Shown here: positions 3,285-19,605 of the stretch, piece after piece
Layout of the letters: each line of letters begins with the position of its first letter
Numbering within the stretch: position 1 is the stretch's first letter
Source: Desulfobacteraceae bacterium
GTDB lineage: Bacteria; Desulfobacterota; Desulfobacteria; Desulfobacterales; Desulfosalsimonadaceae
Direction: 5' to 3'
DNA: 34,396 nt
Assembly (NCBI GenBank): GCA_021737045.1
Contig: JAIPES010000019.1
Location: 1-34,396 of the forward strand
Notes under the pieces: model-generated
The model's database searches: none
Told to the model about the DNA's origin: nothing
The model's input: the letters and a program-made list of their open reading frames with translations, nothing else
Translations under genes and position numbers: made by a program

Positions 3285-3313
3285 AAACGTTTGGGTTGGG
3301 AGAAGGCGGATAT

Positions 3314-4036: not shown

Positions 4037-4671
4037 TGGCCGGCATTGCCTTCATGCGCAGGATTTTTTACAGGTTTGGTTTTTTTGCCGCGCTGCTGTG
4101 TGCTGTCCCGTTTTTTGCCGGCTGGGCCGACACCATGGAGGAGATCGGAGATCAGGCAGCCGGTATCCGGACGGTCAAAGCGCGGTTTGTCCAGGAAAAG
4201 CATTTGGAAATGCTGGACAACCCCCTTATATCCAAAGGCGAGCTGTATTTCCGGGCCCCGGATTCCCTGCGCTGGGAATACACCGATCCCGTAAAAAGCA
4301 TCCTGCTGATGAACCGCGACCGGATCAGCCAGTACGCCATGGGTGAAGACGGCATGCAGGCCCGGCAGGGCAGGGATCTGGAGGCCATGCGCGTTTTTCT
4401 GGAGCAGGTGGGCCAATGGATCCGCGGCGGGTTTGACAAAAACACTGCTTTTGCCGCAGAACTCAAAAAAGGGCAAAGGGTGGTGCTGACCCCTGTGGAC
4501 AAAAACATTTCCGCGGTGATTGAAAAAATTGAACTCCGGCTCACCGACACCCCGGGCGTGATCGCGTCTGCTTTTATTTATGAGGATGAAACCTCTTATA
4601 CCCGCATTGTGTTCCATGACACAAAGATCAACCCGAAGATTGAAGACAGCGTATTTGAGCACGCCGGATAG
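4036..4671 (+). CDS. LolA-like outer-membrane lipoprotein carrier protein
   Basis: A 211-residue exported protein with a signal peptide (about 1-32, cleavage near FAGWA). The LolA-type body contains IRTVKARFVQEKHLEMLDNP, then KGELYFRAPDSLRWEYTDP, the conserved early strands of the half-barrel. LolA homologues bind acyl chains and ferry lipid cargo across the periplasm. A specialised copy (ApeG-type) is a hallmark of aryl-polyene clusters, where it is thought to help deliver the polyene lipid to the outer membrane. The start was fixed by the TGATG overlap with the ketoreductase; a longer frame back into fabG adds no signal sequence. It probably works with the MMPL exporter and the two following lipoproteins. 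Confidence 0.87.
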   Translation: MAGIAFMRRIFYRFGFFAALLCAVPFFAGWADTMEEIGDQAAGIRTVKARFVQEKHLEMLDNPLISKGELYFRAPDSLRWEYTDPVKSILLMNRDRISQYAMGEDGMQARQGRDLEAMRVFLEQVGQWIRGGFDKNTAFAAELKKGQRVVLTPVDKNISAVIEKIELRLTDTPGVIASAFIYEDETSYTRIVFHDTKINPKIEDSVFEHAG

Positions 4672-4796
4672 AGAAGGGCTGACAAATCGTTTGCACCCTG
4701 CTGATTTGGAATAATATTTTATTTCAGATGCCGGTCCGTGCGAACATGTTGTTTGCAGCAGGCCATTCCAAATTTATCCGCAAAAGGGGGTTGATG

Positions 4797-5222
4797 ATGA
4801 AACAATGGATTTACGGCGGTTTTCTGGTGTTGATGAGCGTGGCACTGATTTCCTGCACCGCAAGCTTGAAAAAAAGTGAGATTGATCCATGGCTGGCCGA
4901 CGTTTCCGGCAGCAGAGCCCCTGCCGTTAACGTGGAAGGCAAATGGCAGGACGCGGATGTGGATCCCAACACCCCGTTTGGATGGGGCAAGGGCATGCTG
5001 GAGCAATCAAATGGCAGAATCGAGGGCCATATCGGCCACTACAACATCACCGGAAGGGTCAGCGGCAACGAGGTTTACCTGGTGTTTCTCTCCGGCGGGT
5101 CGGTCTATTACACGGCCCGGCTGGAAATGAAGGAAAAGGGCGTGCTGCGGGGCAATTATTTTTATGACGACGACCTGGCACAGGAAAACGGCATGCCCAT
5201 GAACCTGGAAAAAGTTGAATAA
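4797..5222 (+). CDS. Lipoprotein of unknown function
   Basis: A 141-residue lipoprotein with a signal and lipobox ending at Cys16 (VALISC). The mature part is a predicted beta domain (VNVEGKWQDADV..., GRIEGHIGHYNITGRVSGNEVYLVF...), reminiscent of small lipocalin- or calycin-like ligand-binding barrels, but no named family is recognised. The start is the second of two tandem ATG codons (4794, 4797), spaced 6 nt from AGGGGG; either is possible. A 125-nt gap precedes it, with an AT-rich TAATAT stretch near 4711 that could hold a weak promoter. The next gene overlaps its stop. Context suggests a part of the lipid-product delivery machinery. Confidence 0.75.
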   Translation: MKQWIYGGFLVLMSVALISCTASLKKSEIDPWLADVSGSRAPAVNVEGKWQDADVDPNTPFGWGKGMLEQSNGRIEGHIGHYNITGRVSGNEVYLVFLSGGSVYYTARLEMKEKGVLRGNYFYDDDLAQENGMPMNLEKVE

Positions 5223-5937
5223 CCGCAAATATACATCCAGCAGGGGGTTGTGGATTGCCCGGCCGGCACTGATTCTGGTTTTTATGGTCTTCATGGCAGC
5301 CGGATGTGCCGGGCTGCCGGAAATCCGGCTGGAAGGCCCTGTTGCTGAATTCCGGGTGAAAACGGCCTGCCGGAAAGTGTTTGCAAACACCCCCCGGCAG
5401 GTCGTGCATTCCATGACCGCACGGATGCCCAATGACGAGATTTACCAGGGCATTTCCGTTACCCGGGTGTCGCCGGAATCCGGCCGGATCAAATGCGTGA
5501 TCATGAGCATAGAGGGCTTGGTGCTGTTTTCAGGGCAGGCCAATGGCGAGATCCGGGTTGAGCGCGCAATCGGCCCGTTTGACAGCGAAAAATTCGCAGA
5601 GCGCTTGTTTGCCGATATCCGGCAGGTGTTTTTACCCCCCCGGGGCCTGATGGTTGCTGCGGGACAAAATCCCGATAACAACCCGGTGTGTCGTTATTTG
5701 TTAGACGACGGCGGTTTTCTGGACGTGGTGCAGGCCAGCCCAAACCAGGTGCAAATCATTGAATACAACCCGGGCAGAAAAAAGACCCAGACCGTTTCCG
5801 TTACCCGGGCGCCGGCGTCGGGCGAAGCCGGCCTCAGGCCGGCGGACACCATCGTGATCGAGCGTCACGGAGTCCTGGGCTACCGGCTGGACCTTGAGCG
5901 CATCGAGCAGAACCCGGATTCCGCAAATTTGCCGTGA
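5215..5937 (+). CDS. Lipoprotein, possibly DUF3261-like
   Basis: A 240-residue lipoprotein beginning at a TTG that overlaps the stop of the preceding gene by 8 nt. A signal with lipobox ends at Cys31 (FMAAGC). The central part (GLVLFSGQANGEIRVERA, then FAERLFADIRQVFLPP) has the pattern of the DUF3261 lipoproteins found in aryl-polyene clusters; this is a moderate-confidence resemblance by eye. The C-terminal half (residues 155-235) is a second beta-rich part with NPGRKKTQTVSVTR and YRLDLERIE. It ends 10 nt from the convergent coiled-coil gene with no terminator between. It is likely an outer-membrane docking factor for the cluster product. Confidence 0.7.
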   Translation: MNNRKYTSSRGLWIARPALILVFMVFMAAGCAGLPEIRLEGPVAEFRVKTACRKVFANTPRQVVHSMTARMPNDEIYQGISVTRVSPESGRIKCVIMSIEGLVLFSGQANGEIRVERAIGPFDSEKFAERLFADIRQVFLPPRGLMVAAGQNPDNNPVCRYLLDDGGFLDVVQASPNQVQIIEYNPGRKKTQTVSVTRAPASGEAGLRPADTIVIERHGVLGYRLDLERIEQNPDSANLP

Positions 5938-6427: not shown

Positions 6428-7275
6428 GACAATGTCCTTTCATTTGTTTTGTCATTGCCGGCTTTTTCCGGCCGGATGGATTGGTGCATCACGGCATGGC
6501 CTGTGAGCCCGGAGACAGACCGGATCACAAGGCCTTGTTCAGAGAAAACAATAAGAATTTTCTCCATTTCCGCAAGCCATTGCCGCGGGTCAAACCGCGC
6601 GGTTCCCGGGTGGCCGTCATGGAGCAAAACGATGTCTCCGCTTTGCACCTTTCTGCTGATGCGCGCGGCCAGGCCGTTGATTTTCCGGTTTCCCACGTCC
6701 GGTCCCCGGCATGAGTAAAGAATACAGCGCATTTTGTATTTTTCAAGTACGGCCCTGAGCTTCGGGTTGACCACCCCGGCCGGGGGGCGGAAGGCGGCGG
6801 GCCGGATGTTGAAGCACGCCAGGATGTTTTGGGTTTTTGCGATTTCCGCGTCCAGTTTTCCGGCGGGCTTGAGCATGACAAACACGTCGTGGCTGTAGGT
6901 GTGATTGCCGATGCAGTGGCCTTCGGCAAGGATCTGTTGGATAATTTCCGGATGTTTTTCCGCCTTTTGGCCGGTGACGAAAAATGTGGCCGGCGCATTC
7001 CAGCGCCCAAGCAGCTCCAGCAGGGCCGGGGTGGTTTCCGGGTGAGGGCCGTCATCAAATGTAAGGGCAACGCTGTTGCTGTTTCTGGGGCCTTTGCAGA
7101 TAACGGGCAGAAAAAAACCGGACCGGCCCAAAACCGCTCCTGCCGCGCACATGATCACAAAGGCGGCAAGCACGGCCGCAGCAAAGTACGGGTGGATGAA
7201 AAAAACCGCCACGGCCGCGAAAAATGCGCCGGCTGCGGCAAGCCACGCAGGGGCTATGCCAAAGCCGGCCTTCAT
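6424..7275 (-). CDS. Membrane-anchored polysaccharide deacetylase (NodB domain, CE4)
   Basis: A 283-residue protein with two N-terminal membrane segments (about 9-27 and 31-55) followed by a NodB homology domain. Motif 1 is TFDDGPH (D74, D75), motif 2 is HTYSH (metal ligands H125, H129), motif 3 is RPPAG, and the LLHDGH motif follows. These supply the catalytic Asp, the metal site and the catalytic His of carbohydrate esterase family 4. It would de-N-acetylate a sugar on the outer face of the inner membrane; a glycosyltransferase in the same operon suggests a sugar on the lipid product. The start was chosen from the ATGA overlap with the upstream radical SAM gene. Confidence 0.9.
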   Translation of the reverse strand: MKAGFGIAPAWLAAAGAFFAAVAVFFIHPYFAAAVLAAFVIMCAAGAVLGRSGFFLPVICKGPRNSNSVALTFDDGPHPETTPALLELLGRWNAPATFFVTGQKAEKHPEIIQQILAEGHCIGNHTYSHDVFVMLKPAGKLDAEIAKTQNILACFNIRPAAFRPPAGVVNPKLRAVLEKYKMRCILYSCRGPDVGNRKINGLAARISRKVQSGDIVLLHDGHPGTARFDPRQWLAEMEKILIVFSEQGLVIRSVSGLTGHAVMHQSIRPEKAGNDKTNERTLS

Positions 7276-8630
7276 CTGACCAGATGCTCCCACAAGGGCC
7301 CGGTATGGCCACGGGCATGGAGCCGGGAGATGATCTGCGCGCTTTTGTCTCCGCCGCTGCCAACGATCCAGTTGATGCGGTTTTGGGCTTTTTCCAGCAC
7401 CCGGGCCTGTATCTGTTCGGCGCTGATGTGTGCGGGACTGTAAAATACGGGTTCAAGAAGATCTGCGTTTGTCTGGATCAGTCCCCGTTCCACGGCCATC
7501 TGCCGCACCCGGGTGCCCGGATAAATGCGGATGCCGGTGAAAAAAAAGCAGGCGGTTTTCTCCAGGGCTGCGGCATTGTCCAGTGTTGTTTCCAGGGTTT
7601 TTTCAGATTCGTCCGGCGCGCCCAGCAGAAAAAAATGGGCTGCATGGATTCCCGCATCCAGGGCGGCCTGGTGGGCGGCGAAGATATCTGCGCAGGTAAA
7701 GGGTTTACGGTACTGGGACAGGATGGAATCGCAGAACGCGTCTGTGCCGAATTCCGCATGGGTCATGCCGGCTTTTGCAAGGGCGGCAAAATAGCCTGCC
7801 GGCATCCGGGCCGGGGCGATGTAGGCGCCCCAGTCAACGGTGATTTGTGCGCGTTCAAAGGCCCGGGCCACGGCCAGGCTGTGATCCGGGTCTGCATTAA
7901 AGGCCGAATCCGTGATAAACAAAAACGCGGCTCCGGCATCCTGGAGCTGCCGGGCCTGCCTGGCCACTTCCGCGGGGTCAAACAGCCGCATGCGCCTGCC
8001 CTCGATGTCGGGGTAAGTGCAGTAGATGCACTGAAAACAGCACCCCCGCTTGGTCTGCAGGTTGAGCATCCCGCCGTGGCGAAGATAATAATCCACGTGC
8101 GGACGATCGGCCAGAAACGAGCGCTTTGTTAAGTTACCCAGGGGCGTCGGCGGTGTGAGGGCTTCGGCCGGGCTGTTTGGGGTGATTACCCCGGGCAGAT
8201 CGGTTACGGGTTTGTTTTGGGAAAGCCGGTCCAGAAACGCGGCCAGGCGCTCGCCTTCGCCGGTCAGGGCGTAATCCGCCCCCAGGTGCGTCAAAATGGC
8301 CCGGGGAAACATGTTCAGCCCGCTGCCGCCGATAATGACCGGCGCACGGCTGATTTTTCGGATTCGGTCCACAAGTTCCCGGCTCTGCCAGAGATAGGTG
8401 CCCGGGTTGACCGCATCAGTGGTGTCCACGTTGCGGATGGAAATGCCGATGATATCCGGATCGGTCCGGGCCACCCGGGCCAGAACGGTTTCAGCGCCGC
8501 CGGGTTCATTGATGTCTGCGATCCACACCTGATGGCGGTCCTTGATGGCCCCGGCCACGCAGTCCAGCCCCAGGGGGTAGACCGGGTAGGGTCGGGTTTC
8601 GGTGTTGGGCGAGATCAGCAAAACCTTCAT
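7272..8630 (-). CDS. B12-binding-domain radical SAM protein (cluster enzyme 2)
   Basis: A 452-residue protein. The N-terminal cobalamin-binding-type domain (about 1-150) has PLGLDCVAGAIK and VIIGGSGLNMFP. The radical SAM core carries CCFQCIYC (CX3CX2C) after NLQTKRG, and the C-terminal part ends in a helical region. It is distinct from the first radical SAM enzyme: its spacing and flanks match the general B12-radical SAM class with a GGSG strand. No DxHxxG cobalamin-His motif is evident, so B12 may bind base-off without a protein His, or not at all. The start overlaps the KS-CLF stop (ATGA); 41 upstream residues in the longer frame lie inside that gene and are not used. Substrate unknown. Confidence 0.87.
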   Translation of the reverse strand: MKVLLISPNTETRPYPVYPLGLDCVAGAIKDRHQVWIADINEPGGAETVLARVARTDPDIIGISIRNVDTTDAVNPGTYLWQSRELVDRIRKISRAPVIIGGSGLNMFPRAILTHLGADYALTGEGERLAAFLDRLSQNKPVTDLPGVITPNSPAEALTPPTPLGNLTKRSFLADRPHVDYYLRHGGMLNLQTKRGCCFQCIYCTYPDIEGRRMRLFDPAEVARQARQLQDAGAAFLFITDSAFNADPDHSLAVARAFERAQITVDWGAYIAPARMPAGYFAALAKAGMTHAEFGTDAFCDSILSQYRKPFTCADIFAAHQAALDAGIHAAHFFLLGAPDESEKTLETTLDNAAALEKTACFFFTGIRIYPGTRVRQMAVERGLIQTNADLLEPVFYSPAHISAEQIQARVLEKAQNRINWIVGSGGDKSAQIISRLHARGHTGPLWEHLVR

Positions 8631-10801
8631 GTGTGCATCATCTCCACTGCTGTAACGGGTTTTCCGGCATTGATCATTAAAATTCCCCTGGCGCGCAGAT
8701 CGATTTCCGTGTCTCCGGCCGGGCCGGCCGGGAGAAATCCTTTTTCCATGCACCCGGCAGCCAGGCCTGCGGCCGCGGCAGAGGCCGTGGCAAATTCGCC
8801 GGTATATTTCCGGTAATCCACCATTGGCAGGTTTGTGTCAAGGGCCTGGCAAAAGGCGTTGATCACCCGGCGGGAAAAATCCGCACGGGCTGCGGGAATG
8901 CCGGCAAAGATGACACCGATTCTTGCTGAAACGGCTCTGGCCCCGCCCAGTTTTTCCACCAGGGCGCTGGCGGTTTTGGCCGGATCATCGCTGCCAAGGA
9001 CAAATACAGGACCAATGCCGATGCCGGTGTTGGCGGAGGTGAGCATCAGTCCGCCCCCGCCGTCGGCCGGAGTGGCGGCCAGGGCGGCTGACGGATCAAA
9101 CCTGCGGATCAGGGGTTCATGGGCCTCGTCTGCGCCCATGACCAGGCATGGGCCATGGTTGTTTCCCATGAGCCGGGCTGCGATCAGGGCCTGTTCAAAG
9201 GCGTCGTCCTGTCCCGTGAGTGTCATGTTTGCACCCCTGGCCCCGAGCATGAGTGCGGCCTGGCCGGCAGGGGCGTTGTGTACGGATCCGGCAAAATCCA
9301 TGGGGCTGGAAAGCCGCTCCTGGTTGGCAAACAGCCGGGTGAGAAAATTATGGGTCTCTGTGAGCGCTCCCCAGCCGGTGCCGAAAAACAGGTCCGAAAT
9401 CTGATTGTCCATATTTGTGCGGGATATCGCCTGGCCGGCCAGGTTTATCGCCATTCTGGAAAGCCGCTTTAACCGCCGGACGGCTTTTGTATCCAGGTCA
9501 GCAGACAGATCTGCATTGGACAATATCCCGGCGCAGGAAAGATTGCTGTAAAACGCCTGCAGACTGGCTTCTGTGTCCCCTGCGCCGGTGATGCACATGC
9601 CGGTTAAAACGCCTGTGACATCGGGATGTTTTGTGCAATGACCGTGCTTTCCGGCTTTGCCCGGGATTTTGTTTTGGATGCCGCCAATGACCAGGGCGGC
9701 ATTGTTGCCCCCGAACCCGAAGGAATTGGACAGCACGGTGCTGATTTTTCCGTGCTGCGGCCGGGTCAGGGGGTGGATGTCCAGATCCGGGTCAGGGGTT
9801 CGCATGCCCGCGTTTGCGGGCAAAAAGCCGTCTGCCGCTGCCCGGGCGCAGATGCCCGCTTCCATGGCCCCGGCTGCTGCAAGGCTGTGGCCGAAAGCGC
9901 CCTTGACAGAGGAGAGCGCCGGGGGGTTGTCTCCGAATACCGCATGCACGGCCCGGGCTTCGGCCGCGTCATTGCCGATGGTGCCGGTGCCGTGCAAATT
10001 GATGTAGTCGATGTCTGCAGGGCCCATCCCGGCATCTTTTAAGGCGGCTTCCATGGCCCGGGCCGCGCCCAGGCCTTCCGGATGCGGGGAAGTGGCGTGA
10101 TGAGCGTCACAGGAAAGACCGGCGCCCAGAATTTGGGCAACTGCATTTTTTGGGGGCGTTTGACCGCCTTTGAGCAGAACCAGGGCCGCGGCCTCGGAAA
10201 GGTGCATGCCCTTTCTGTTTGCGTCAAAGGGCCGGGCGCCCTCCGGGTCGATTAATTGCAGGGCGGCAAACCCGTGGCAGGTCAGTCGGCACAGGGCATC
10301 AGCTCCCCCGGCCAGCACAGTTTGGGCCATGCCGCAGCCAATCATCCGGGCGGCCAGGGCAATGGCCGCAGCCCCGGAGGAGCAGGCAGTGGAGACCGTC
10401 AAAACCGGGCCGGTGCATCCGCAGACCCCGGCCGCATGCCGGGCCACCGTGTCCAGACCGTGGCCTGCATAGGCCCGGGGGTCTGTGACCTTGTTTTTGA
10501 TCAGCACTTCGGATTCCGGCATTCCGCCGGTGGTCACGCCCATGACCACTGCGTCGGGCACAGTACCCGGACATTGGCTCATGATCTGTCTGACCGCTGC
10601 ATCTGTGAGCGCATGGGTCCGGCCGGCACCAATGGCGGGCAAATCCATGCTCACCTGGCCGGCCACTGGCGGATCCGGATGGGCAAACAGGGTCAGGGGG
10701 GCGGCACAAATCCGGTTTTCCTCCAGTGCGGCCATGGTCTGCCGGGTGTCTCCCATGGGCGTGATCATTGCAATGCCGGTGATGTAAATGCCTGTCAACA
10801 T
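8627..10801 (-). CDS. Ketosynthase-chain length factor fusion (KS-CLF)
   Basis: A 724-residue protein made of two ketosynthase-fold halves. Residues 1-380 are an active FabF-type ketosynthase with nucleophile Cys140 (TACSSG), His270 (NLHGTGT), Lys300 and His305 (KGAFGHS), and the C-terminal GFGGNN loop. Residues 395-724 are a second thiolase-fold half with SVHNAPAG (506-513) where the Cys motif would be. That is the signature of the Ketoacyl-synt_2 chain-length-factor family, so this half is catalytically dead and structural. In aryl-polyene and type II PKS systems KS and CLF are separate, heterodimerising proteins; here they form one chain. The enzyme would condense malonyl-ACP iteratively. 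It lies 9 nt after the acyltransferase gene. Confidence 0.93.
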   Translation of the reverse strand: MLTGIYITGIAMITPMGDTRQTMAALEENRICAAPLTLFAHPDPPVAGQVSMDLPAIGAGRTHALTDAAVRQIMSQCPGTVPDAVVMGVTTGGMPESEVLIKNKVTDPRAYAGHGLDTVARHAAGVCGCTGPVLTVSTACSSGAAAIALAARMIGCGMAQTVLAGGADALCRLTCHGFAALQLIDPEGARPFDANRKGMHLSEAAALVLLKGGQTPPKNAVAQILGAGLSCDAHHATSPHPEGLGAARAMEAALKDAGMGPADIDYINLHGTGTIGNDAAEARAVHAVFGDNPPALSSVKGAFGHSLAAAGAMEAGICARAAADGFLPANAGMRTPDPDLDIHPLTRPQHGKISTVLSNSFGFGGNNAALVIGGIQNKIPGKAGKHGHCTKHPDVTGVLTGMCITGAGDTEASLQAFYSNLSCAGILSNADLSADLDTKAVRRLKRLSRMAINLAGQAISRTNMDNQISDLFFGTGWGALTETHNFLTRLFANQERLSSPMDFAGSVHNAPAGQAALMLGARGANMTLTGQDDAFEQALIAARLMGNNHGPCLVMGADEAHEPLIRRFDPSAALAATPADGGGGLMLTSANTGIGIGPVFVLGSDDPAKTASALVEKLGGARAVSARIGVIFAGIPAARADFSRRVINAFCQALDTNLPMVDYRKYTGEFATASAAAAGLAAGCMEKGFLPAGPAGDTEIDLRARGILMINAGKPVTAVEMMHT

Positions 10802-10810
10802 CCCGTGTCC

Positions 10811-11671
10811 TTAGGGTTCAAAATGATGCCACTGGCAGGGATGTGCCAGCACCGCCTGCTCCAGCAGGCGGGTGTATTGCCGTGCGGCATCCGCGATCTG
10901 CCGGTCGCGGCCCGGGCCTTTTTTCCGGGCCGGCGAAATGGGCGGGTGGATGATAAAGCTGTAATGATGCGCGCCTGTGCGAAAGGCAAAAAACACGTAA
11001 ATCGGTGTTCTGGTGGCTGCGGCCAAAGCAAAGGGCGCCCTGGGCAGCCGCACCGGCCGGTTGAAAAACGTGGTTTCCACATATGCCTGGTTTGCGTCCC
11101 GGAACCGGTCGCCGGCCATGGACAGAATCCAGCCCTTTCGCAGATATGCCATGGCCTCGATGATTTCCATGGGCGAGCCCTGGCGGTTTTGGCCTGCAAT
11201 CACCCTTACCCCGCTTTTTCGCAGGCTTTGTTTCTGTGTGCCCTCGATCTGTTCGTTCTGTTTTTCCCCCATGACCAGAAGCAGGGGCACGCCCTGTTCT
11301 TTTAGCAGCCGGGCGGCCACCTCCCAGTTGCCCACATGGCTCATGAGCAAAATCCCGCCGGTGCCGGCTGTTATGCAGGCCTTTAGATGCTCCAGGCCGC
11401 TGGCGGTGTAGGTGATGCGGTTTTTATGTTCCAGCAGGTAGCGGTCCACGTAAAGATGGGTAAAGCTGTGAAATTGCCGCCACGCACACCAGATATGATA
11501 CCATGCCGGCCGGCCGGGAAAAAGGATTCTGTAAAAACGAACGCTCACGGCCACCCGGGGCGGAAAAAACAGAAAATAGCCGGCTGCAATGGTGCGCACG
11601 GCTGCATAAAAGACCCAAATCCCGTATTTTTCAGAGCAATATGCCAGAATTTGGTAAAACAGGCGGATCAT
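10811..11671 (-). CDS. LpxL/HtrB-like lysophospholipid or lipid A acyltransferase family protein
   Basis: A 286-residue protein with an N-terminal membrane-associated part and the acyltransferase catalytic motif HX4E (H112...E117 in MSHVGNWE), then a GDRF segment and a basic motif (FNRPVRLPRAPFALA) typical of the lipid A acyltransferase family. Members transfer an acyl chain from acyl-ACP to a lipid or sugar acceptor at the inner membrane. In aryl-polyene clusters such enzymes are proposed to attach the polyene to its lipid or glycan anchor. Its start overlaps the MMPL-methyltransferase stop (ATGA). Acceptor and donor are unknown; the donor is plausibly the cluster ACP. Confidence 0.88.
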   Translation of the reverse strand: MIRLFYQILAYCSEKYGIWVFYAAVRTIAAGYFLFFPPRVAVSVRFYRILFPGRPAWYHIWCAWRQFHSFTHLYVDRYLLEHKNRITYTASGLEHLKACITAGTGGILLMSHVGNWEVAARLLKEQGVPLLLVMGEKQNEQIEGTQKQSLRKSGVRVIAGQNRQGSPMEIIEAMAYLRKGWILSMAGDRFRDANQAYVETTFFNRPVRLPRAPFALAAATRTPIYVFFAFRTGAHHYSFIIHPPISPARKKGPGRDRQIADAARQYTRLLEQAVLAHPCQWHHFEP

Positions 11672-14600
11672 CGGGTTTCACCATAACTTTGGGGTTTTCT
11701 GGCAGCAAACCATTTTTCCTCCCGCCCCCGGCCCGAGTCCTGCACATGGCGAATTTCAAAGCCCGTAGATGTCAACAGATCCCGGATTTGGGCCTCGGTT
11801 CGGTCATGGCGCGCAATTCCCCGGATTTTTAAGCGCAGGATTTCAACCCGCCGCAGAAATGAATCTTTTGAATCTCTGAGCACGGCCGCGCGCATGATCA
11901 ACCGGCCGCCCGGCTCCAGGCGGTTTTTTGCAGCGGCCAGGGTTTGGGCGGCGGTATTGTCTGAAAGGTAATGGAGCATGTCGATCATCAGGGCGGTGTC
12001 TGCGGGATGGTCCGGTGCCGGCAGGTCCGGGGCTGCAGCCTGCCATATGGTTCCCTGATCAGCCGTGATGCGGCTGGCAAACCGCACCCGTTCGCCGTCC
12101 GGGTCCATGCCGGTTATCCGGATTTTTGGGTCCATGGCCAGCAGCCACCCGGCGGTGATGCCGTAGCCGCATCCGATGTCCAGAACCGCGGCCGGCCTGT
12201 CCAGAAACCCGGGCAGCTCGGCAAACATGGGATCCACCCGGCGCTTGATTGCAGCAAAAATCCGGGGATAGGCCTCGGTGTGCCGGTACATGCGGGCAAG
12301 GCGCTGTTTGTGTTCTGCAGAGCCTGGCGCTGCCACACCCTGGCCCGGGACCGCGGGCTGAAACAGGATATCCAGAATGGCCGGCAGCAGGCAGAAGGTA
12401 CCGGCGGCCACAAACAGCACCGCAGGGGCCAGAATCAGGCCCAGGCTTTTCATGAGCAGGTGTTCTCCTGTGGCCAGGGCGGCAAACCCGATAAAGGTGG
12501 AGGCCGCAGCCAGAAACACGGTCATGCGGATGTGGGCGAAATGCGGATGGGCCGGCGTGCCGTAGCGCTGGTAGGCCCGGACGAAATAAAGGGAATAATC
12601 CAGGCCCATGCCGAAAACCACCACAGAGAGCATCAGCCCGGGAATGTTTAGCGGCTGGCCCAGCAGGTGCAGGAGGCCCAGGGTGCAGACCATGGCAAAG
12701 CCCAGGGGCAGAAGCGAGACCGCCGCCAGGGTGAAATCGGCAAAAAACACCACCAGCAGCACGGCCACGCCCGCAGCCACAATGGCAAACATTTGCACAA
12801 AGGTATTTGAAAGCAGCGTGCCCAGGTTTTGGGCGTAATAATTGGGGTCCAGCACGGAGATTTCCGGCCGGCCCGATGAAATCGTGTCAAAAAACCGGGC
12901 CGGATCATAATTTTCTCCTGGCACAAGAGAGGCAAACAGGATGTGGCCGTCTCCGGTCTTTTCGGAATGAATGCCCAGAAAATCAAAAAAACGTTCATCA
13001 AAGCGCATCTGCCCGGAGGCGCAGTCAGTGGTTTGGCTTGAATACACGTGTGCAAAATTTTCCGGGTTTATCCCCAGGGCCGCGGCCTGATCCATGATGC
13101 GGGAAACCACTTGCTTTTGTCCGGCATCCTGCCAGAACTGCTGCCATGCGTTCATATTGGAGCGGCAGCGCTTTGGACCGGGAAACAGCATGGAGGGGAA
13201 AAACGCCTCTGAAATGCGGTTTTCAGCCATTTGGTCTTCGATTTCGGCGGCAAGCCGGTCGCTTGTCTGCTGGAGCTTTTTTTTGTTTTCCGCCCGGGCC
13301 ATGACATGGACCCGGTCAAACATCCGGTTTCCCCAGGTGTCTGCGATCTGCTGTTCTGCGGCAAGGGTGTTTTTGCTAACGGTATTGATGGCGGAAATAT
13401 CTGCGCAGAAATCCGGCCGGGCAAAAAAGGCCAGAATACCGGCTGCCAGAAGGGCGGCAACCAGCTTGGGCTTTTTGCCGGACAGCACCGCATGGTCTAC
13501 TGCGGTTTGCAGCAGCAGCCGGTGCTTGCGCCGGGCCCCTTTAAGCCCGGGCATCAGCAGGGGAAAACCTGTATGCACGAACAAAAAGGAAAACAAAATG
13601 CCCAAAGCGGCAAACTGCCCGATTTCCGCGAGTATGGGAAACCCGCTGAAAACCAGCAGAAAAAAGGCGCCCGCCGAGGTCAGCGCAGCTGCAAGGGCCA
13701 CTGCCCACACTTCCCTGGAGGCCTGTTTGCCGGTTGTTTCATAAGGCCGGTCTGCAAACAGCAGATAGGAAATGCCGTGATCAACCGTAATGGCCACGAT
13801 GGCCCCGCCAAATCCCACGGCCATGATGGTGATGGATTCGTGGAACAGGGCGTATACCACCAGGGCGGCCAGGGTGCCGAACACTGCGGGCACAAAGGCC
13901 AAAAGCCCGATTGCTGGCCTGGGAAAGGCCAGCATGAGCAGCGCGGCAATGCCCAGGGCCGAAAGAAACACCGCCTGTCTGGCGTCGTTTTTGGCTGCGG
14001 TTTCATTGTCGATCACCGCCCGGTAGGCGCCGGCCGCGGTCAGTGTCAGGTCCGCGCCCCGGGTGTCAAAATCCCGGGAAAGCGCCTGCCGGGCCTGGCT
14101 GATGGCCGCGGCGATTTCTCTGGCGGCTTCTGATCCGGTGGCTGCCCGGCCGGGATCGGCAATAATTAAGACATGGCCCAGGTCTTTGGAAAACAGCCGG
14201 CCCTTGTGAAATTCGATGTTTTCTGCCGGCATCAGGGCCCGGGTTTTTTCCAGGACCACATCGCGCAGGCCCGCGGGATCAGCAACAATGGCCCGGGCCC
14301 GGCCGGTGCTTTCCATGGTGTAGAGCCGGGACAGGTTTTGCCTGACCCGTTTTTCCAGCACCCCTTTTTCCAGCAAAGGGGTCACTTTTTTTTCCAGATC
14401 CCGTGCCGTGAGCAGGGCCGGCAGGTGTTGTGCTGCATAAAGATCCAGGTCGGAAAAAATCTGCCCGGCGTCTTTGAAACCCACGGCGTCAAAAAGCCCG
14501 GTGGCTTCCATATGCGCTTCCAGCCGTCCTGCGGCCGCAGAAAGAACCTCCGGGTCTGCGGGTTCAAGTCCCAGATCGATCAATACCCGGTTTTGATAGG

Positions 14601-14787
14601 GGTGGTTTAAAATGACTTCATGGCTGTCGGCCATGACCGGATTGCCAGCGGGCAGGGAATGCAAAATGTTGGTTTCAATGCGGAGGCCTGAGGCAGAAAA
14701 GGCGAAAACTGCCATTGCTCCGGCAATCACGGTAAAAAGGATGCCGCGTGCCAGCATGGATTTTTTTGTAATCCTGGTTTGTGTCAA
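11668..14787 (-). CDS. MMPL/RND-family exporter fused to a class I SAM methyltransferase
   Basis: A 1039-residue protein. Residues 1-800 are an RND/MMPL transporter: one N-terminal helix (about 13-33), a large periplasmic loop, a helix bundle (about 270-425), then a second helix and loop, and a second bundle (about 655-800). Intramembrane acidic pairs are D336-H337 (TVDHGISY) and D730-Y731 (GLDYSLYF), as expected of proton-driven MMPL pumps. Residues about 830-1030 are a soluble methyltransferase with SAM motif I DIGCGYG (870-876), then GMDPD and LMIDMLHYL. In related clusters exporter and methyltransferase are separate genes. The fusion places methylation at the cytoplasmic face of the exporter. 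Start overlaps the glycosyltransferase stop (ATGA). Confidence 0.92.
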   Translation of the reverse strand: MTQTRITKKSMLARGILFTVIAGAMAVFAFSASGLRIETNILHSLPAGNPVMADSHEVILNHPYQNRVLIDLGLEPADPEVLSAAAGRLEAHMEATGLFDAVGFKDAGQIFSDLDLYAAQHLPALLTARDLEKKVTPLLEKGVLEKRVRQNLSRLYTMESTGRARAIVADPAGLRDVVLEKTRALMPAENIEFHKGRLFSKDLGHVLIIADPGRAATGSEAAREIAAAISQARQALSRDFDTRGADLTLTAAGAYRAVIDNETAAKNDARQAVFLSALGIAALLMLAFPRPAIGLLAFVPAVFGTLAALVVYALFHESITIMAVGFGGAIVAITVDHGISYLLFADRPYETTGKQASREVWAVALAAALTSAGAFFLLVFSGFPILAEIGQFAALGILFSFLFVHTGFPLLMPGLKGARRKHRLLLQTAVDHAVLSGKKPKLVAALLAAGILAFFARPDFCADISAINTVSKNTLAAEQQIADTWGNRMFDRVHVMARAENKKKLQQTSDRLAAEIEDQMAENRISEAFFPSMLFPGPKRCRSNMNAWQQFWQDAGQKQVVSRIMDQAAALGINPENFAHVYSSQTTDCASGQMRFDERFFDFLGIHSEKTGDGHILFASLVPGENYDPARFFDTISSGRPEISVLDPNYYAQNLGTLLSNTFVQMFAIVAAGVAVLLVVFFADFTLAAVSLLPLGFAMVCTLGLLHLLGQPLNIPGLMLSVVVFGMGLDYSLYFVRAYQRYGTPAHPHFAHIRMTVFLAAASTFIGFAALATGEHLLMKSLGLILAPAVLFVAAGTFCLLPAILDILFQPAVPGQGVAAPGSAEHKQRLARMYRHTEAYPRIFAAIKRRVDPMFAELPGFLDRPAAVLDIGCGYGITAGWLLAMDPKIRITGMDPDGERVRFASRITADQGTIWQAAAPDLPAPDHPADTALMIDMLHYLSDNTAAQTLAAAKNRLEPGGRLIMRAAVLRDSKDSFLRRVEILRLKIRGIARHDRTEAQIRDLLTSTGFEIRHVQDSGRGREEKWFAARKPQSYGETR

Positions 14788-15584
14788 TGGCTGCCACTCC
14801 TTGCTGATCTTCTTAGAAAACCAACAAACCGCTGTCCCAAAAGCCGGGTGAAAATCCCTGCATTGCGAAGAAAATCCACGCCGGGGCGGAAATGGGAGAT
14901 GCGCTGGTCAGCCGGCAGGTAATGGACGTTTACCGGCACTTCAATTACGGAAACACCCTGACGGCAGGCCCGCACCAGGATTTCCACCTCAAAGTCAAAC
15001 CGGGTGCACATCGCCCCCCAGTGCAGGGCCGCGGGCAGGGGATAGGCCCGGAATCCGCTCTGGGAATCGGACAGTTTGGGCCCGCCGCACACCCAGACCC
15101 AGAAGTTGGAAAACCGGCGGCCCATCCGGGAGCCGTATCGGATATGGGATTGTTCCATTCCCGTGCGGCAGCCCACGATCAGGGCGCGGCCGGAATCGGT
15201 CGCCGCAGCCATCAGGGCCGGAGCGTCTGCCGGGTCATGCTGGCCGTCAGCGTCTATGGTCACGGCATAGTCGGCCAGTTGCGCCGCCTCTGTCAGGCCG
15301 GTTTGAAGGGCCGCGCCCTTGCCGGTGTTGCGGGCATGGGTGATCACGCGGATATCTGAAAGCCGCCCGAGCCGGGCGGCGGTGTCATCTGTTGATCCGT
15401 CGTTTATCACGATAATGTCTGTACCAAGCCCTTTGGCCCGGGATATGACCGCTTCCAGGGCCGCACCGTGATTGTAGACCGGAATCACGATGACAAACCG
15501 GCACTTTTGCGGCCGTTTTTGCGCCGGGCCGGATTTGGGGCCGGATTTAGGATTCATGGACATGCAGGGGTTCTTGGGGGTCAT
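14784..15584 (-). CDS. Family 2 glycosyltransferase (DPM1/polyprenyl-phosphate type)
   Basis: A 266-residue GT-A enzyme with IPVYNHG at the N-terminus, NDGSTDD (D62), the metal-binding DADGQHD (D111, D113), SDSQSGFRAYP and RFDFEVEIL. This matches the dolichol-phosphate-mannose-synthase-like branch of GT2, which usually moves a sugar from a nucleotide donor to a lipid acceptor. The first 26 residues are Lys/Pro-rich and may be trimmed, since in-frame ATG codons at 15563 and 15557 are alternative starts; all overlap the DAK2-DegV gene by 11-38 nt. The C-terminal RLLGQRFVGFLRR is basic and likely membrane-facing. A sugar on the lipid product fits the downstream deacetylase. Confidence 0.9.
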   Translation of the reverse strand: MTPKNPCMSMNPKSGPKSGPAQKRPQKCRFVIVIPVYNHGAALEAVISRAKGLGTDIIVINDGSTDDTAARLGRLSDIRVITHARNTGKGAALQTGLTEAAQLADYAVTIDADGQHDPADAPALMAAATDSGRALIVGCRTGMEQSHIRYGSRMGRRFSNFWVWVCGGPKLSDSQSGFRAYPLPAALHWGAMCTRFDFEVEILVRACRQGVSVIEVPVNVHYLPADQRISHFRPGVDFLRNAGIFTRLLGQRFVGFLRRSARSGSH

Positions 15585-17313
15585 GTTTTCGCGGATTGTC
15601 GCAGCACCAGGCCACGGCCCAGGCGCCCGGACCGATGTGGACCCCGGAGGTCATGGACATGGGCTGGAGCAGGATTTCTGCTTCAGGAAAAAGCCCGGCG
15701 ATGCGTTCTTTGACCGGGCCGGCCACCCATTGCCGGTTATCGGAATATTCCAGCAGCAAAAGGGGATGGGGGGCGTGGTTTAAGTCCTGCTGCAGTTGTT
15801 GTTCGGCAAATTTGATCTGGGCTTCGGCGTTTCGCACGATGCCGACTTTTTCCGCCCCATGGGAAAGGGGGCTGATCACCGGTTTCATGTGGAGCATGTC
15901 GCCGAAAAAGGCCCCGGTTTTCGACATCCGGCCCCCTGCGGCCAGGTATTTGAGCTCGTCGAGAAATATGTATTCCCCGCAGCGCTCAACAATGTTTCGG
16001 GCAAATGCGATCACCTGGTTTGCGCTTTGAACGCCGGCTGCATACCGGGCCGTGGCCGCGGCTATGGCCGCCAGGCGGCCCGAGGCCGCGCCGGTGTCAA
16101 TGACAAAAAACCGGTCATCCATGTCGTTTGCCGCCTTCCAGTCCATGGCCGTCTGGTAATTGCCGGTGTAGATCGAGCCCACGCACAGGTAAAGCACCCG
16201 GTCGTGCTGGGACAAAAGCCGGGCGTAATGCTGATGGCGTTCAAAATCCGAGGCCTGGGAGGTTGAGGCGCGCACGGCCCGGCGCATGGCCTGGTAAAGT
16301 TCCTCCGGGTCCATGCATGTTTCCGGGATGCAGCGGTCGCCCACGGTGACATAGCTTTCCAGCAGGGTGATGCCCAGCCGGCCGGCCAGGTGCCGGGATA
16401 TTGAGCCGGCCGCATCCGTGACAAGGTGCACCGGCGCAGCGGCGGCCGGCAGCCGGAAGGCGGCGGCCTGCTCGGCCATGTTGTCTTCGTTCCAGGAAAC
16501 AATGCGGCCCATCTGCCCGAGTTGTTTTCGCGCAGCAGAGCGGTCTGCGGTGTGCAGGTGAATTTTGGCGTACCCGCCGGTGTGAAAAACCGTCAGACTG
16601 TCGTGGTCTTGTGCGGCTGCCGGGTCCTGTGTACCGGAGTTCTCGTTTACCTCCACCACTGCATCCACGCAGAATCCGTTTTCCGCGGCTGCGGCATACT
16701 CCGGATCAATTTTGAGCCGGCCGGCAAAGATTTCGTGGATGGGGAGAAAGGGGCGGTCTTGTCCGCAAAAATCTGTAAAAAAGCCCTCCAGAAACACGAA
16801 CATGCCAAGGGCCCCGGCATCCACCACCTTGGCGGCGCTCAGTTCCCGGATCTGGCCGGTGCTGCTGTCAACTTCGGTCTGCATGGCATCTGTGACGGTT
16901 TTCAGGCCGCTTTGCGGGTTTTTAGGGTCGGGCAGGGCGGCTATGGCTTCGGCAAAAGCATCAATAACGGTGAGCATGGTGCCGGCCCGGGGTCTGGAAA
17001 TTGCACTGCGGGCATTCTGTGCCCCGGTTTGGGCGCACTGGTAAAGGGCTTTTAATCCGTTTGCGGCCAGAAGATCATTGACAAAACGGGCTGCGATGTT
17101 TCCGGAATTGCCCCTTGCGGCAAACAGAATCTGGTGCCCGGTTTTCTCCGGGCCCTGGTCTGAAACGTTTCTGAGCGGGGCCAGGGTGATCATGAGGTTT
17201 CGGCCCGTATCCCCGTCTGCCACGGGAAACACGTTGATCCGGTCAAGTACCGCCGACCATGCGGCCAGCCGCTCATAGCCGGTTAAAAGGGCCTGGTGAA
17301 AGTCTGCTGCCAT
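15547..17313 (-). CDS. DAK2-DegV fusion: FakA-like kinase joined to FakB-like fatty-acid-binding domain
   Basis: A 588-residue protein. Residues 1-205 are a DhaL/DAK2 nucleotide-binding domain with DGDTG (33-37) and RGNSG (67-71), the ATP/Mg motifs of fatty-acid kinase FakA. Residues about 210-285 match the FakA middle domain, including a Cys in GFCVDAVVEV and a His-x-His in YAKIHLHT, which in FakA bind zinc. Residues about 292-588 are a DegV/FakB domain with VTDAAGSIS, TSQASDF near 349 (FakB-type carboxylate site) and GGRMSKTGAFFGDML near 459. FakA and FakB are normally separate; together they phosphorylate free fatty acids to acyl-phosphate. The start follows the thioesterase stop by 1 nt (TAA-C-ATG); an ATG at 17334 adds seven residues. 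Confidence 0.87.
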   Translation of the reverse strand: MAADFHQALLTGYERLAAWSAVLDRINVFPVADGDTGRNLMITLAPLRNVSDQGPEKTGHQILFAARGNSGNIAARFVNDLLAANGLKALYQCAQTGAQNARSAISRPRAGTMLTVIDAFAEAIAALPDPKNPQSGLKTVTDAMQTEVDSSTGQIRELSAAKVVDAGALGMFVFLEGFFTDFCGQDRPFLPIHEIFAGRLKIDPEYAAAAENGFCVDAVVEVNENSGTQDPAAAQDHDSLTVFHTGGYAKIHLHTADRSAARKQLGQMGRIVSWNEDNMAEQAAAFRLPAAAAPVHLVTDAAGSISRHLAGRLGITLLESYVTVGDRCIPETCMDPEELYQAMRRAVRASTSQASDFERHQHYARLLSQHDRVLYLCVGSIYTGNYQTAMDWKAANDMDDRFFVIDTGAASGRLAAIAAATARYAAGVQSANQVIAFARNIVERCGEYIFLDELKYLAAGGRMSKTGAFFGDMLHMKPVISPLSHGAEKVGIVRNAEAQIKFAEQQLQQDLNHAPHPLLLLEYSDNRQWVAGPVKERIAGLFPEAEILLQPMSMTSGVHIGPGAWAVAWCCDNPRKHDPQEPLHVHES

Positions 17314-17314
17314 G

Positions 17315-17740
17315 TTATTCAAATCCGAGTGCATGCCGGATGGTATCCGGAATTTTAAAAAGGGTCTCCATCTCCGGGATTTTTACGGCCGCCTGCTGGC
17401 TTTTGCCTTTGGCAATAACCCGGCTGTCTTGTGTGAGGCGGATGATAAAATCCACGCCGATTTTGTAGTCCACTGCCGTGAGTTTGGCCCGGCAGACAAA
17501 CTCGTCGCGGAAGCGCAGGGGAAACACGTGCTTGATGCTGGTGCGGATGATGGGGAAAATGTGTTGGGTATCCGTGTAGACCCGGTAGAGGTCCACGCCC
17601 ATTTTCCGGAACAGGGCGTCGCGGGTGATGTCAAAGTATTTGAAGTAATTTCCGTGCCATACCACTTCCATGGGGTCCAGGTCATGGAAGGGGACCGTGA
17701 ATTTCACTTCACAGATTCTGTCGGTGTCTTCAGTTTTCAT
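17315..17740 (-). CDS. Acyl-CoA/acyl-ACP thioesterase (4HBT hotdog, YbgC-like)
   Basis: A 141-residue hotdog thioesterase. The N-terminal active-site signature HDLDPMEVVWHGNYFKYFD carries the catalytic Asp22 and the H-x-N turn of the 4-hydroxybenzoyl-CoA thioesterase/YbgC family; the rest (VFPLRFRDEF, LTAVDYKIG) fits the beta-sheet core. The length is normal. It is the first gene of the long minus operon, 75 nt from a predicted transcription start. It would release a free acid from a CoA or ACP thioester. Next to the DAK2-DegV fusion this suggests a release-then-phosphorylate route, but that is inference. Confidence 0.9.
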   Translation of the reverse strand: MKTEDTDRICEVKFTVPFHDLDPMEVVWHGNYFKYFDITRDALFRKMGVDLYRVYTDTQHIFPIIRTSIKHVFPLRFRDEFVCRAKLTAVDYKIGVDFIIRLTQDSRVIAKGKSQQAAVKIPEMETLFKIPDTIRHALGFE

Positions 17741-17770
17741 AAATCCTGTCCGGCTGCATAAAAATCCCGT

Positions 17771-17790
17771 TTCCTGTCAAAAGTCAGGAA
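17771..17790. promoter_or_regulatory. Palindrome in the operon leader
   Basis: TTCCTGTCAAAAGTCAGGAA has perfect 6-bp outer arms (TTCCTG/CAGGAA) and lies between the predicted transcription start and the thioesterase gene. It could be a repressor operator or an mRNA hairpin; no regulator gene is adjacent. Confidence 0.4.
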
Positions 17791-17821
17791 CTGCGAGGGT
17801 TGCTGTTACGGCGGTTTTGCC

Positions 17822-17850
17822 AATTTACCGGCACAGGGGGCGGCTGTCAA
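17822..17850 (-). promoter_or_regulatory. Sigma-70-type promoter of the minus biosynthetic operon
   Basis: On minus, TTGACA (17850-17845, perfect -35) and TAAATT (17827-17822) are separated by exactly 17 nt. Transcription would start near 17815, giving a leader of about 75 nt before the thioesterase gene. From here ten genes run to 5948 with 4-nt overlaps at most junctions, so this is probably the main promoter. Confidence 0.7.
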
Positions 17851-17949
17851 GAAAGACGTTTACAAAGGTTACTGATTCGTTCTTCTGATATGCCTGAGTA
17901 ACTTCAGCATCGTCATAACCAGGGCATAAGCAGCTTGTGGTGGTTTTCG

Positions 17950-18145
17950 CATGTGTCGGGGCGGGTGCGGTTTGTTTGTCTGCGGCGTGCTTTCGGCGAT
18001 CGGACCGGGGCTTTGGCTGGAATTTTAAAAACTCGGGCTGGTCGCCCTCAGACAGTTTAAAATTCCGGTCGCCAAAACCCCGGTCCGATCTTATGCCGAA
18101 ACCGCGCCAATGCAGCCAAACAAACCACCCCCGCCCCGCCCCATG
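17950..18145. repeat. Large imperfect palindrome A (about 195 bp)
   Basis: Left-arm landmarks GGTTTG, TTTCGGC and GATCGGACCGGGG recur inverted on the right as CCCCGGTCCGATC, GCCGAAA and CAAACC. The inner arms are AATTTTAAA and TTTAAAATT. The centre combines ACTCGGGC with GCCCTCAGACAG, a core also found inside palindrome C at 18441-18652. No protein is encoded. It would form a very long hairpin. Confidence 0.85.
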
Positions 18146-18220
18146 GCCAGCGCACTGGAAATATTCGGCAACAACTGGTCTTTACCAAGAGGTCTTTTGA
18201 ATTTGGACACCTAAAGGGTT

Positions 18221-18345
18221 GATGGCACCGTAAAAAGTCCAATATCTGCGTTACGCGTGATTTCTCAGAATTTCACGTACGGATAAGTACGCTGCATTCT
18301 TCGAAATCGCGCAAGCCTTGATCTTGAACTTTTTACGGCGCCATC
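18221..18345. repeat. 125-bp palindromic element B ending in GATGGC/GCCATC
   Basis: The ends GATGGCACCGTAAAAAGT and ACTTTTTACGGCGCCATC are inverted copies, with further interrupted pairing inside (GCGTTACGCG/CGCGCAAGC, TACGGATAAGTACGC). A terminal fragment of the same element (GATGGCACCGTAAAAAG) recurs at 20385-20401 beside the PlsC gene. Element size and terminal symmetry resemble a non-autonomous repeat (MITE-like), but no target duplication was established. Confidence 0.8.
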
Positions 18346-18440
18346 TGAAAATCGACTTTTTACGAGTGCGTCAAGGGTTGATCAACTCAAAAGGGGCTTT
18401 TCAATGTGTTTTACAGAATTATCGAATTTGAGCATGGTCC

Positions 18441-18652
18441 CCAAGGAAGCCCGAAGGACGGGGGCGGGTTTTTGAAGCGACATTGAGGGTTTTTGCGGGA
18501 AAATTCAGCCGATGCCGGAGCCGGAAAATTTCAAACTGTCTGAGGGCGCCTGCGCCCGAGTTTTTGAAATTTTGGCGAAGGCATCGGCTGAATCCGCAAA
18601 AACGATCAGGAGCGAAAAAACCCGGCCCCGGCCGAGGGGCTTCCTTCCTGGA
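18441..18652. repeat. Large imperfect palindrome C (about 212 bp)
   Basis: CCAAGGAAGCCC at the left is inverted as GGGGCTTCCTTCCTGG at the right. ATTCAGCCGATGCC pairs with GGCATCGGCTGAAT, and the centre is GTCTGAGGGCGCCTGCGCCC followed by GAGTTTTTG. It shares its central core with palindrome A and its outer arms with palindrome D (20426-20540), so it is a composite member of one repeat family. Confidence 0.85.
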
Positions 18653-18737
18653 AAAACAGCGGATGGTATAAAAAGCTTTTTATGAGGCCGTCAATCCTGT
18701 TGGAAAGAGAAAAGACGATATGCAAAATCTTTTCCCC

Positions 18738-18822: not shown

Positions 18823-19062
18823 ATGCCCGTATTCGGAGATGAACTCAAGCGGTTGCGGCAGAAAAAACAGGTGAGCACAGGGCAGGTGGCCATGGCTGTG
18901 GGAATTCCCCAGTCTCGCTACAGTGAAATGGAAAAAGGCGTTCGGGTGGCCTCAGAGGGCCAGATCCAGCGGCTTGAAAAATACTACGAGGCTGAAGCCG
19001 GCGCCCTGGCCGCATTAATGAAAAAACAATGGCAGGATTTGATGCAGGCAGCTGCGGCATAG
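18823..19062 (+). CDS. Small Xre-family helix-turn-helix regulator
   Basis: A 79-residue protein with a lambda-Cro/C1-type HTH at about residues 8-50: LKRLRQKKQVSTGQVAMAVG, then IPQSRYSEMEKG as the recognition helix and turn. A short helical tail (residues 52-79) may mediate dimerisation. A good GGAG ribosome binding site precedes the ATG. The palindrome over its own -10 suggests autoregulation. It lies 99 nt upstream of hicB on the same strand. Because that HicB is short and lacks a DNA-binding domain, this protein might control the toxin-antitoxin pair, but nothing in the sequence proves it. Confidence 0.85.
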   Translation: MPVFGDELKRLRQKKQVSTGQVAMAVGIPQSRYSEMEKGVRVASEGQIQRLEKYYEAEAGALAALMKKQWQDLMQAAAA

Positions 19063-19097: not shown

Positions 19098-19127
19098 TTC
19101 GACTTTGGTTTTATAACCTGTTATATT
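19098..19127 (+). promoter_or_regulatory. hicBA promoter with operator-like palindrome
   Basis: TTCGAC (19098-19103) and TATATT (19122-19127) are 18 nt apart, with the palindrome ATAACCTGTTAT (19113-19124) overlapping the -10. The site fits an autoregulated toxin-antitoxin promoter. Confidence 0.5.
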
Positions 19128-19161
19128 GGAACAAAATAAAGGAAAACATGGGAGAGGTGGC

Positions 19162-19371
19162 ATGAAAACATATACGGCAATCATTGAGAAATGCCCTGAA
19201 ACCAATCTGTATGTTGGTTTTGTCCCGGGATTTCCGGGTGCCCATTCTCAAGGGGAAACGCTGGACGAACTGAATCAGAATCTAAGGGAAGTGATCCAAA
19301 TGCTTCTCGAGGATGGAGAGCCTATGCTGGAAACCGAATTTGTGGGCACTCAAACTGTTTTGGTGGCGTAA
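19162..19371 (+). CDS. hicB: HicB-family antitoxin (short form)
   Basis: A 69-residue HicB/UPF0150 domain: YTAIIEKCPETNLYVGFVPGFPGAHSQGET is the partial RNase-H-like sheet and LDELNQNLREVIQMLLED the helix. The start was taken at the ATG after GGGAGAGGTGG; an upstream in-frame ATG at 19126 overlaps the predicted -10. No C-terminal HTH or ribbon-helix-helix domain is present, unlike longer HicB proteins. The stop codon abuts the hicA ATG (TAAATG), so the pair is translationally coupled, in the order antitoxin then toxin. It would bind and neutralise HicA. Confidence 0.92.
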   Translation: MKTYTAIIEKCPETNLYVGFVPGFPGAHSQGETLDELNQNLREVIQMLLEDGEPMLETEFVGTQTVLVA

Positions 19372-19596
19372 ATGGGTTCTGTGCCGGTCCTGAAACCAAA
19401 AGAGGTGGCCAGGATCCTTCAAAAAATGGGATTTTCTGAGGTGCGTCAGAGGGGTGCACATAAACAGTTTCGACACAAGGATGGCCGGAAAACGACCGTG
19501 CCGTTCCACCCTGGAAAGGACATATCTCCAATCCTGCTGAAACAGATTGCCCGGGATATTAAAGTATCCCTGGAGGAATTTTTGCAGTACAGATAG
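19372..19596 (+). CDS. hicA: HicA-family mRNA interferase toxin
   Basis: A 74-residue double-stranded-RNA-binding-like fold. KEVARILQKMGFSEVRQRGAHKQFRH holds the active His30 in G-A-H (usually G-S-H), and KTTVPFHPGKDISPILLKQIARDI is the conserved second half. HicA toxins cut mRNA independently of the ribosome to arrest growth; HicB blocks them. Only 9 nt separate its end from the convergent PlsC gene, with no clear terminator. All conserved elements are intact, so the toxin is probably active. Confidence 0.92.
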   Translation: MGSVPVLKPKEVARILQKMGFSEVRQRGAHKQFRHKDGRKTTVPFHPGKDISPILLKQIARDIKVSLEEFLQYR

Positions 19597-19605
19597 TGTA
19601 AGCGT

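Follow-up and report, generated by a model that had tools for sequence, protein, structure and literature searches.

On the minus strand of the stretch of DNA analysed here (the window: 34,396 nucleotides from a Desulfobacteraceae bacterium, the entire contig C63 of its genome, G000), one open reading frame joins a DAK2 kinase domain, a FakA-like middle domain and a FakB-like DegV domain into a predicted single-chain fatty-acid kinase (15547-17334, 595 aa, ATG start). The reading that we favour, and to which we give slightly better than even chances, is that this protein is dedicated to the gene cluster in which it lies and re-activates the acid released by the cluster's thioesterase as an acyl-phosphate for PlsY or PlsX. 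Fatty-acid kinases, DAK2-DegV fusions, PlsY and aryl-polyene clusters are all known kinds; for a DAK2-DegV fusion within an aryl-polyene-type cluster we found no description in the open-access literature, in which other work may possibly have been missed.

The fusion gene and its predicted protein

A preliminary description of this DNA had reported the fusion at 15547-17313 and given no strand. The end at 15547 stands; position 17313 corresponds to the second Met of a minus-strand reading frame that reaches 17334, and on the plus strand of the same interval frame 1 is interrupted by stops and the other frames hold short ORFs only. The domains follow one another as DAK2 (ATP-binding, kinase; 16780-17226, minus, PF02734, with a FakA_N fold match), the FakA-like middle domain with the Cys/His/His of a zinc site (16462-16680, minus, PF21645) and the FakB-like, fatty-acid-binding DegV domain (15604-16431, minus, PF02645, with TSQAS...VGSxxTGN...HxGPG), all above the Pfam gathering cut-offs (Dak2 1.1e-13, FakA-like_M 1.5e-6, DegV 2e-39). 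The motifs that had been cited, namely DGDTG and RGNSG in the DAK2 domain, a C and HxH in the middle domain, and TSQASDF, are all found, and the three-domain make-up is confirmed by Pfam, by the sequence and by an AlphaFold2 model. Among the NCBIfam models, the fusion scores above the cut-off of the DegV family TIGR00762 and below those of YloV (TIGR03599, 133.9 bits, cut-off 396.1), the FakA equivalog (NF038248, 62.7 bits, cut-off 975) and the FakB1 equivalog (NF038249, 55.5 bits, cut-off 350), and it lies so far under these last three that it is therefore an equivalog of none of them. The FakA C-terminal domain (PF13684) gave no match to the fusion in the Pfam scan, and the DegV domain sits in its place. 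That this C-terminal domain is itself a degenerate DegV was considered and set aside as lacking sequence support (hhalign probability 1.9%).

In Staphylococcus aureus FakA the nucleotide/Mg2+ residues are Asn32, Asp38 and Asp40, the zinc site consists of Cys240, His282 and His284, and both the Asp pair and this zinc triad are essential (PMC11617999). The first three correspond to N27, D33 and D35 of the fusion protein (P0001), which are kept in 59 of 59 members of its clade and in 28 of 28 members of a second, distant class of fusions that we call class B; the zinc residues correspond to C215, H252 and H254, kept in 59, 59 and 58 of the 59 clade members and again in all 28 class B proteins. 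The Thr, Ser and His of the DegV-half motifs, which from work on FakB we take to be the carboxylate-site residues, are found as T351 in 57, S380 in 58 and H559 in all 59 of these clade members, and between 57 and 59 of them retain the motifs TSQ(A)S, GS and HxGPG. The loss of pocket residues that the preliminary description had named as grounds for giving up its reading is thus not seen at the kinase, zinc or DegV sites. By the criterion that we used, ten positions differ between the clade and class B, nine of them within the DegV half, where TSQP has become TSQA and SGT has become TGN, both (nearly) invariant in the clade. These clade-specific changes suggest that the DegV half of the window's clade has an altered substrate, which they do not name.

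The AlphaFold2 model of the fusion was built from 14 relatives (pLDDT 86, pTM 0.88). Its DegV half matches fatty-acid-binding DegV structures with Z of about 34 (33.7 to the lipid-binding protein 1pzx), and its DAK2 half matches the N-terminal domain of S. aureus FakA (7rzk) with Z of 23.5; Foldseek aligned the whole length of FakA 7w7h to the model with a low TM. From sequence and model together, the assignment of the fusion as a fatty-acid kinase by chemistry is well supported, its activity being predicted. Two stand-alone DegV proteins are also encoded in the window's genome (contigs C75 and C113, loci L022 and L024), in which the only DAK2 domain found is that of the fusion; they may employ the fusion's kinase half or act otherwise.

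The gene cluster and its second half

Next door to the fusion, as had been noted before, is a 4HBT-superfamily thioesterase (17315-17740, minus; Pfam 4HBT_2 / 4HBT), which overlaps the fusion's start by 20 bases and whose closest solved chain is the 4-hydroxybenzoyl-CoA thioesterase 5wh9. The fusion's end is overlapped by a family 2 glycosyltransferase (14784-15584, minus, PF00535), and the minus-strand run, several of whose genes overlap, continues with a fused MMPL/RND-type exporter and C-terminal SAM methyltransferase (11668-14787, minus, Pfam; two separate ORFs in genome G039), an LpxL-like acyltransferase (10811-11671, minus, PF03279; 76 bits to the NCBIfam PIM acyltransferase, below its cut-off), a ketosynthase (KS) and a chain-length-factor-like KS in one ORF of 724 aa (8627-10801, minus; Pfam, NCBIfam) and a B12-binding radical SAM protein of the 'ladderane' type TIGR04072 (7272-8753, minus; 401.1 bits, cut-off 360). 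Beyond this run are an acyl carrier protein (ACP; 2314-2589, minus, PF00550), a FabZ-like dehydratase (2767-3225, plus; a weak NCBIfam fabZ match below the cut-off), a FabG/FlxB-like ketoreductase (3278-4036, plus; 304 bits to FlxB, cut-off 340, and above the FabG PRK05653.1-5 cut-off), a LolA-like periplasmic carrier (3973-4671, plus; Pfam LolA, and 104 bits to LolA2_flexi, cut-off 125) and two small lipoprotein-looking proteins (4728-5937, plus) that have no Pfam match and are kept in the cluster of G134, a genome of the same genus. A second radical SAM/B12 protein (1041-2306, in an ORF reaching 2420, minus; Pfam, NCBIfam) is a marker of the cluster, present in most genomes that have the fusion. 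The window brings together an aryl-polyene-like set, with KS, CLF-like KS, ACP, ketoreductase, dehydratase (the weak match), thioesterase, LolA-like carrier and RND-type exporter, so that the polyene-type cluster of the preliminary description is borne out as one that is, by its gene set, aryl-polyene/flexirubin-like; its product is predicted from these genes.

Contig C92 of the same genome holds the second half of the cluster, including a PlsY and an ApeH-like AMP ligase (C92:8429-9766, 61% to the ligase of the G134 cluster). The preliminary description was right that an acyl-ACP ligase is missing from the window but not that the organism lacks one, and its proposal that the kinase replaces this ligase in priming the KS is not supported: with the ligase on C92, and directly upstream of the fusion in 17 of 65 loci of the clade, the kinase is no substitute for a missing ligase. 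In G134 the series runs on upstream into an aromatic amino-acid lyase (PF00221) and, beyond it, a dehydratase, an ACP, two radical SAM proteins, two KS, a thioesterase, a PS-DH-like protein, PlsY and the AMP ligase. No lyase turned up in the window's draft genome (88% complete), and the window holds no remnant of one; the intergenic, inverted-repeat-looking segment at 17760-18660, where relatives have the lyase gene, is a possible site of loss or rearrangement.

Several further observations concern these contigs and their relatives. Four radical SAM proteins are spread across both cluster halves (7272-8753 and 1041-2420 of the window, both minus; L164 1153-3307, plus). A small HTH protein near 18824-19060 precedes a pair that by eye resembles the HicB/HicA toxin-antitoxin system (19126-19371, plus, and about 19373-19597, plus). 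A BtrH_N/DUF4872 protein (L031:10040-11074, minus) stands beside an ABC transporter in the cluster region of G030. Sister clusters whose radical SAM marker is at ~60% occur without kinase or PlsY in G195, G095, G043 and contig C330 of G083 (L144-L148, L154-L155).

Two classes of DAK2-DegV fusion

When 84,980 species genomes were scanned for the fusion and the best 80 loci kept, nearly all of these proved to be single ORFs, a few being split by a frameshift or a contig end, and they fell into two sets by identity to the window's fusion, at >=37% and at 24-29%. A tree of 90 sequences separates the window's clade (62) from class B (28) with support of 100. Class B, represented by 29 loci from many phyla, has the same three domains in a single ORF and differs in its SGT and TSQP motifs. 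For the clade, loci from added phylum genomes bring the set to 65. A search around the loci with the window and G134 proteins as queries, which distant cluster genes may escape, detected at least one other cluster gene in 64 of the 65 clade loci and at least two in 59, as against none in the 29 class B loci, which are never in a polyene-like cluster (Fisher p = 2e-23 for the linkage, kinship ignored). The preliminary description had called for such a survey of co-occurrence, and had held that a fusion common in unrelated contexts would speak against its reading; that is what class B turns out to be, and what the window's clade is not. The widespread class B also rules out the notion that the fusion is unique to polyene-like clusters. 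The sole clade locus that lacks a nearby cluster gene, L087 (19.6 kb), has an AMP-binding enzyme and an ABC transporter among its neighbours.

Gene order repeats the arrangement in the window. The 5' neighbour of the fusion is a 4HBT thioesterase in 37/65 clade loci and the ApeH-like ligase in the 17 already mentioned, and the family 2 glycosyltransferase is its nearest 3' cluster gene in 37/65; the aromatic amino-acid lyase was found in 25/65, in many clusters just upstream of the thioesterase-fusion pair or of the fusion itself. In G132 a module of thioesterase, fusion, glycosyltransferase and LpxL-like acyltransferase is located 1.3 Mb away from the KS-CLF genes. The dedication of the window's fusion clade to the KS-CLF/aryl-polyene-like cluster is well supported by this linkage.

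PlsY and PlsX as users of acyl-phosphate

PlsY, the PF02660 family, is an acyltransferase that uses acyl-phosphate (PMC5700162). The copy on C92 passes the family cut-off (118 bits, cut-off 24.1) and is below that of the PlsY equivalog TIGR00023 (88.5 bits, cut-off 137.2). With the G134 copy as query (E < 1e-40), 11 genomes out of 198 from the phylum show the cluster-type PlsY, and each of the 11 is among the 16 that have the fusion (Fisher p = 1e-14, kinship ignored); a twelfth match, in G196 (1.6e-26), coincides with that genome's ordinary PF02660 match. A block of KS, KS, thioesterase and PS_DH ends with PlsY in G000, G134, G132, G130, G030 and G067, and in G009, L069 and L071 the cluster-type PlsY is within about 8 kb of the fusion. 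The loop of release and phosphorylation that the preliminary description had imagined is supported by these 11 of 11 genomes, in which a member of an acyl-phosphate-using family accompanies the fusion, and by the thioesterase directly upstream in 37 of the 65 loci. Read by eye from an alignment to aaPlsY, the cluster PlsY keeps the residues of the glycerol-3-phosphate clamp (Ser35, Arg45, Lys104, His177 and Asn180; PMC5700162) and has Asn in place of His92 of the phosphate hole, the acyl-phosphate site.

The cluster PlsY was not found in five fusion genomes, four of which have the ligase directly before the fusion (G014, G088, G117, G171) and the fifth of which is G039; all five have PlsX, the other acyl-phosphate enzyme. 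Since fusion clusters without PlsY exist, PlsY is not the sole outlet. The cultured Allochromatium palmeri DSM 15591 has the fusion in its copy of the cluster (L095), and the part of that locus that was read showed no cluster PlsY. Six fusion genomes (G000, G134, G030, G130, G067 and G077) gave no PlsX. The idea that the fusion is the only source of acyl-phosphate where PlsX is missing was not relied on, as G036, G072 and G161 have PlsY without PlsX and gave no match to the fusion.

Among the 29 class B loci, four, belonging to two lineages, have PlsY immediately 3' of the fusion. These neighbours (L114, L124, L129 and L134) come from Acidobacteriota/Aminicenantes and from gammaproteobacteria. 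Such loci likely represent a single-chain Fak-PlsY pair outside any cluster of this kind, and the adjacency is an independent sign of single-chain kinases feeding PlsY.

A proposed route and its alternatives

The thioesterase of the cluster would free an acyl chain, complete or stalled, as the acid; the DegV domain would hold this acid so that its carboxylate faces DAK2 within one chain (or a dimer), and DAK2, judging by sequence and model, would phosphorylate it to the acyl-phosphate. The divergent PlsY would then move the chain onto glycerol-3-phosphate or a similar phosphate-bearing acceptor, while in genomes without the cluster PlsY, PlsX may convert the acyl-phosphate back to acyl-ACP, and the glycosyltransferase, the LpxL/PlsC-like acyltransferases and the MMPL/LolA system may elaborate and export the lipid. 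The kinase activity, the hand-over to PlsY and the acceptor are all predicted steps. Restriction of this PlsY type to carriers of the fusion suggests that in these anaerobes a polyene is joined to lipid through an acyl-phosphate, a step undescribed for such clusters. More specifically, and only tentatively, since we would put it somewhat under even chances, the acyl-phosphate may be polyenoic, made by a one-protein FakAB, and allow the cluster PlsY to couple the polyene to a lipid anchor of the glycerophosphate type. In the aryl-polyene (APE) system of Escherichia coli, ApeK is presumed to set the acid free, which acyltransferases would then link to lipid, the linking step being unsettled (PMC8253772). 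ApeK is reported in that paper to have shown no hydrolysis of APE-ACP in vitro, and release by the thioesterase is therefore uncertain. The sister clusters of G195, G095 and G043, which lack the kinase, indicate that it is dispensable for the general cluster type.

The fusion might instead activate ordinary fatty acids, scavenged or released by a thioesterase, for acylation of the anchor or for salvage of membrane lipids, with the polyene passed on as acyl-ACP. This we consider rather unlikely, even though characterised FakB proteins bind common long-chain fatty acids (PDB entries), the cluster has LpxL- and PlsC-like acyltransferases, and the Fak of Enterococcus faecalis takes acids from its own thioesterase (PMC12288450), because the invariant changes to TSQA and TGN in the clade's DegV half suggest another substrate, and near-complete linkage to the cluster would be odd for a general scavenger. 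That the fusion activates an aromatic starter (coumarate or cinnamate from the ammonia-lyase) or some other KS primer seems improbable: the lyase of 25 clade loci, so often just upstream of the fusion or its thioesterase, invites the idea, but the same clusters, and the window's genome, have the ApeH-like ligase, the DegV half resembles binders of long-chain fatty acids, and the window's own draft genome yielded no lyase. Very improbable, although fusions with identical domains do exist outside such clusters in many phyla, is a general single-chain kinase like that of class B, present by chance or hitch-hiking, which predicts many clade members outside the cluster where only L087 was found and does not fit the linkage of 64/65 against 0/29, the separate clade, the class-specific residues or the co-occurring PlsY type.

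Relation to known systems and significance

The cluster-dedicated kinase that we favour has the DAK2 domain, zinc middle domain, DegV fold and key residues of the FakA/FakB of Firmicutes (S. aureus, Streptococcus suis, E. faecalis) and differs from them in being one polypeptide, in the replacement of the FakA C-terminal domain by DegV, and in being tied to a biosynthetic cluster. In E. faecalis fatty acids cleaved from ACP by the thioesterase TesE are phosphorylated by Fak, whose product PlsY consumes (PMC12288450), as in the proposed route; that pathway serves membrane phospholipids and has FakA and FakBs as individual proteins, whereas here there is one chain in a lipid natural-product cluster. 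The fusion clusters share with aryl-polyene and flexirubin clusters the KS, CLF-like KS, ACP, dehydratase, ketoreductase, thioesterase and AMP ligase, together with the LolA-like carrier, RND exporter, methyltransferase, glycosyltransferase and acyltransferases (list for the ape genes in PMC8253772), and add to these the kinase, PlsY, several radical SAM proteins and often the ammonia-lyase; the E. coli ape gene table is without a kinase (PMC8253772). With the 'ladderane-type' FASII clusters (Rattray 2009, PMC2649909) they have in common the TIGR04072 B12-radical SAM protein, above cut-off; kinase and DegV go unmentioned in that paper, and we do not claim a ladderane product here.

Acyl-phosphate activation of free acids has been described as a Gram-positive strategy (PMC10146087), in contrast to which the fusion kinase occurs inside clusters of Gram-negative anaerobes. 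Which acid the kinase of FakAB phosphorylates, one still bound to FakB or one handed on to the C-terminal domain of FakA, is an open question (PMC11617999); the existence of a natural one-chain enzyme without that domain favours action on the FakB-held acid, and the fusion could yield a structure of the active FakAB complex. If the proposal is true, the thioesterase, fusion kinase and PlsY constitute a previously undescribed tailoring route of polyene-lipid clusters, one that would fill the lipid-joining step left unsettled for aryl polyenes; for anaerobic forms of the cluster, the kinase and PlsY would give an answer that can be put to the test.
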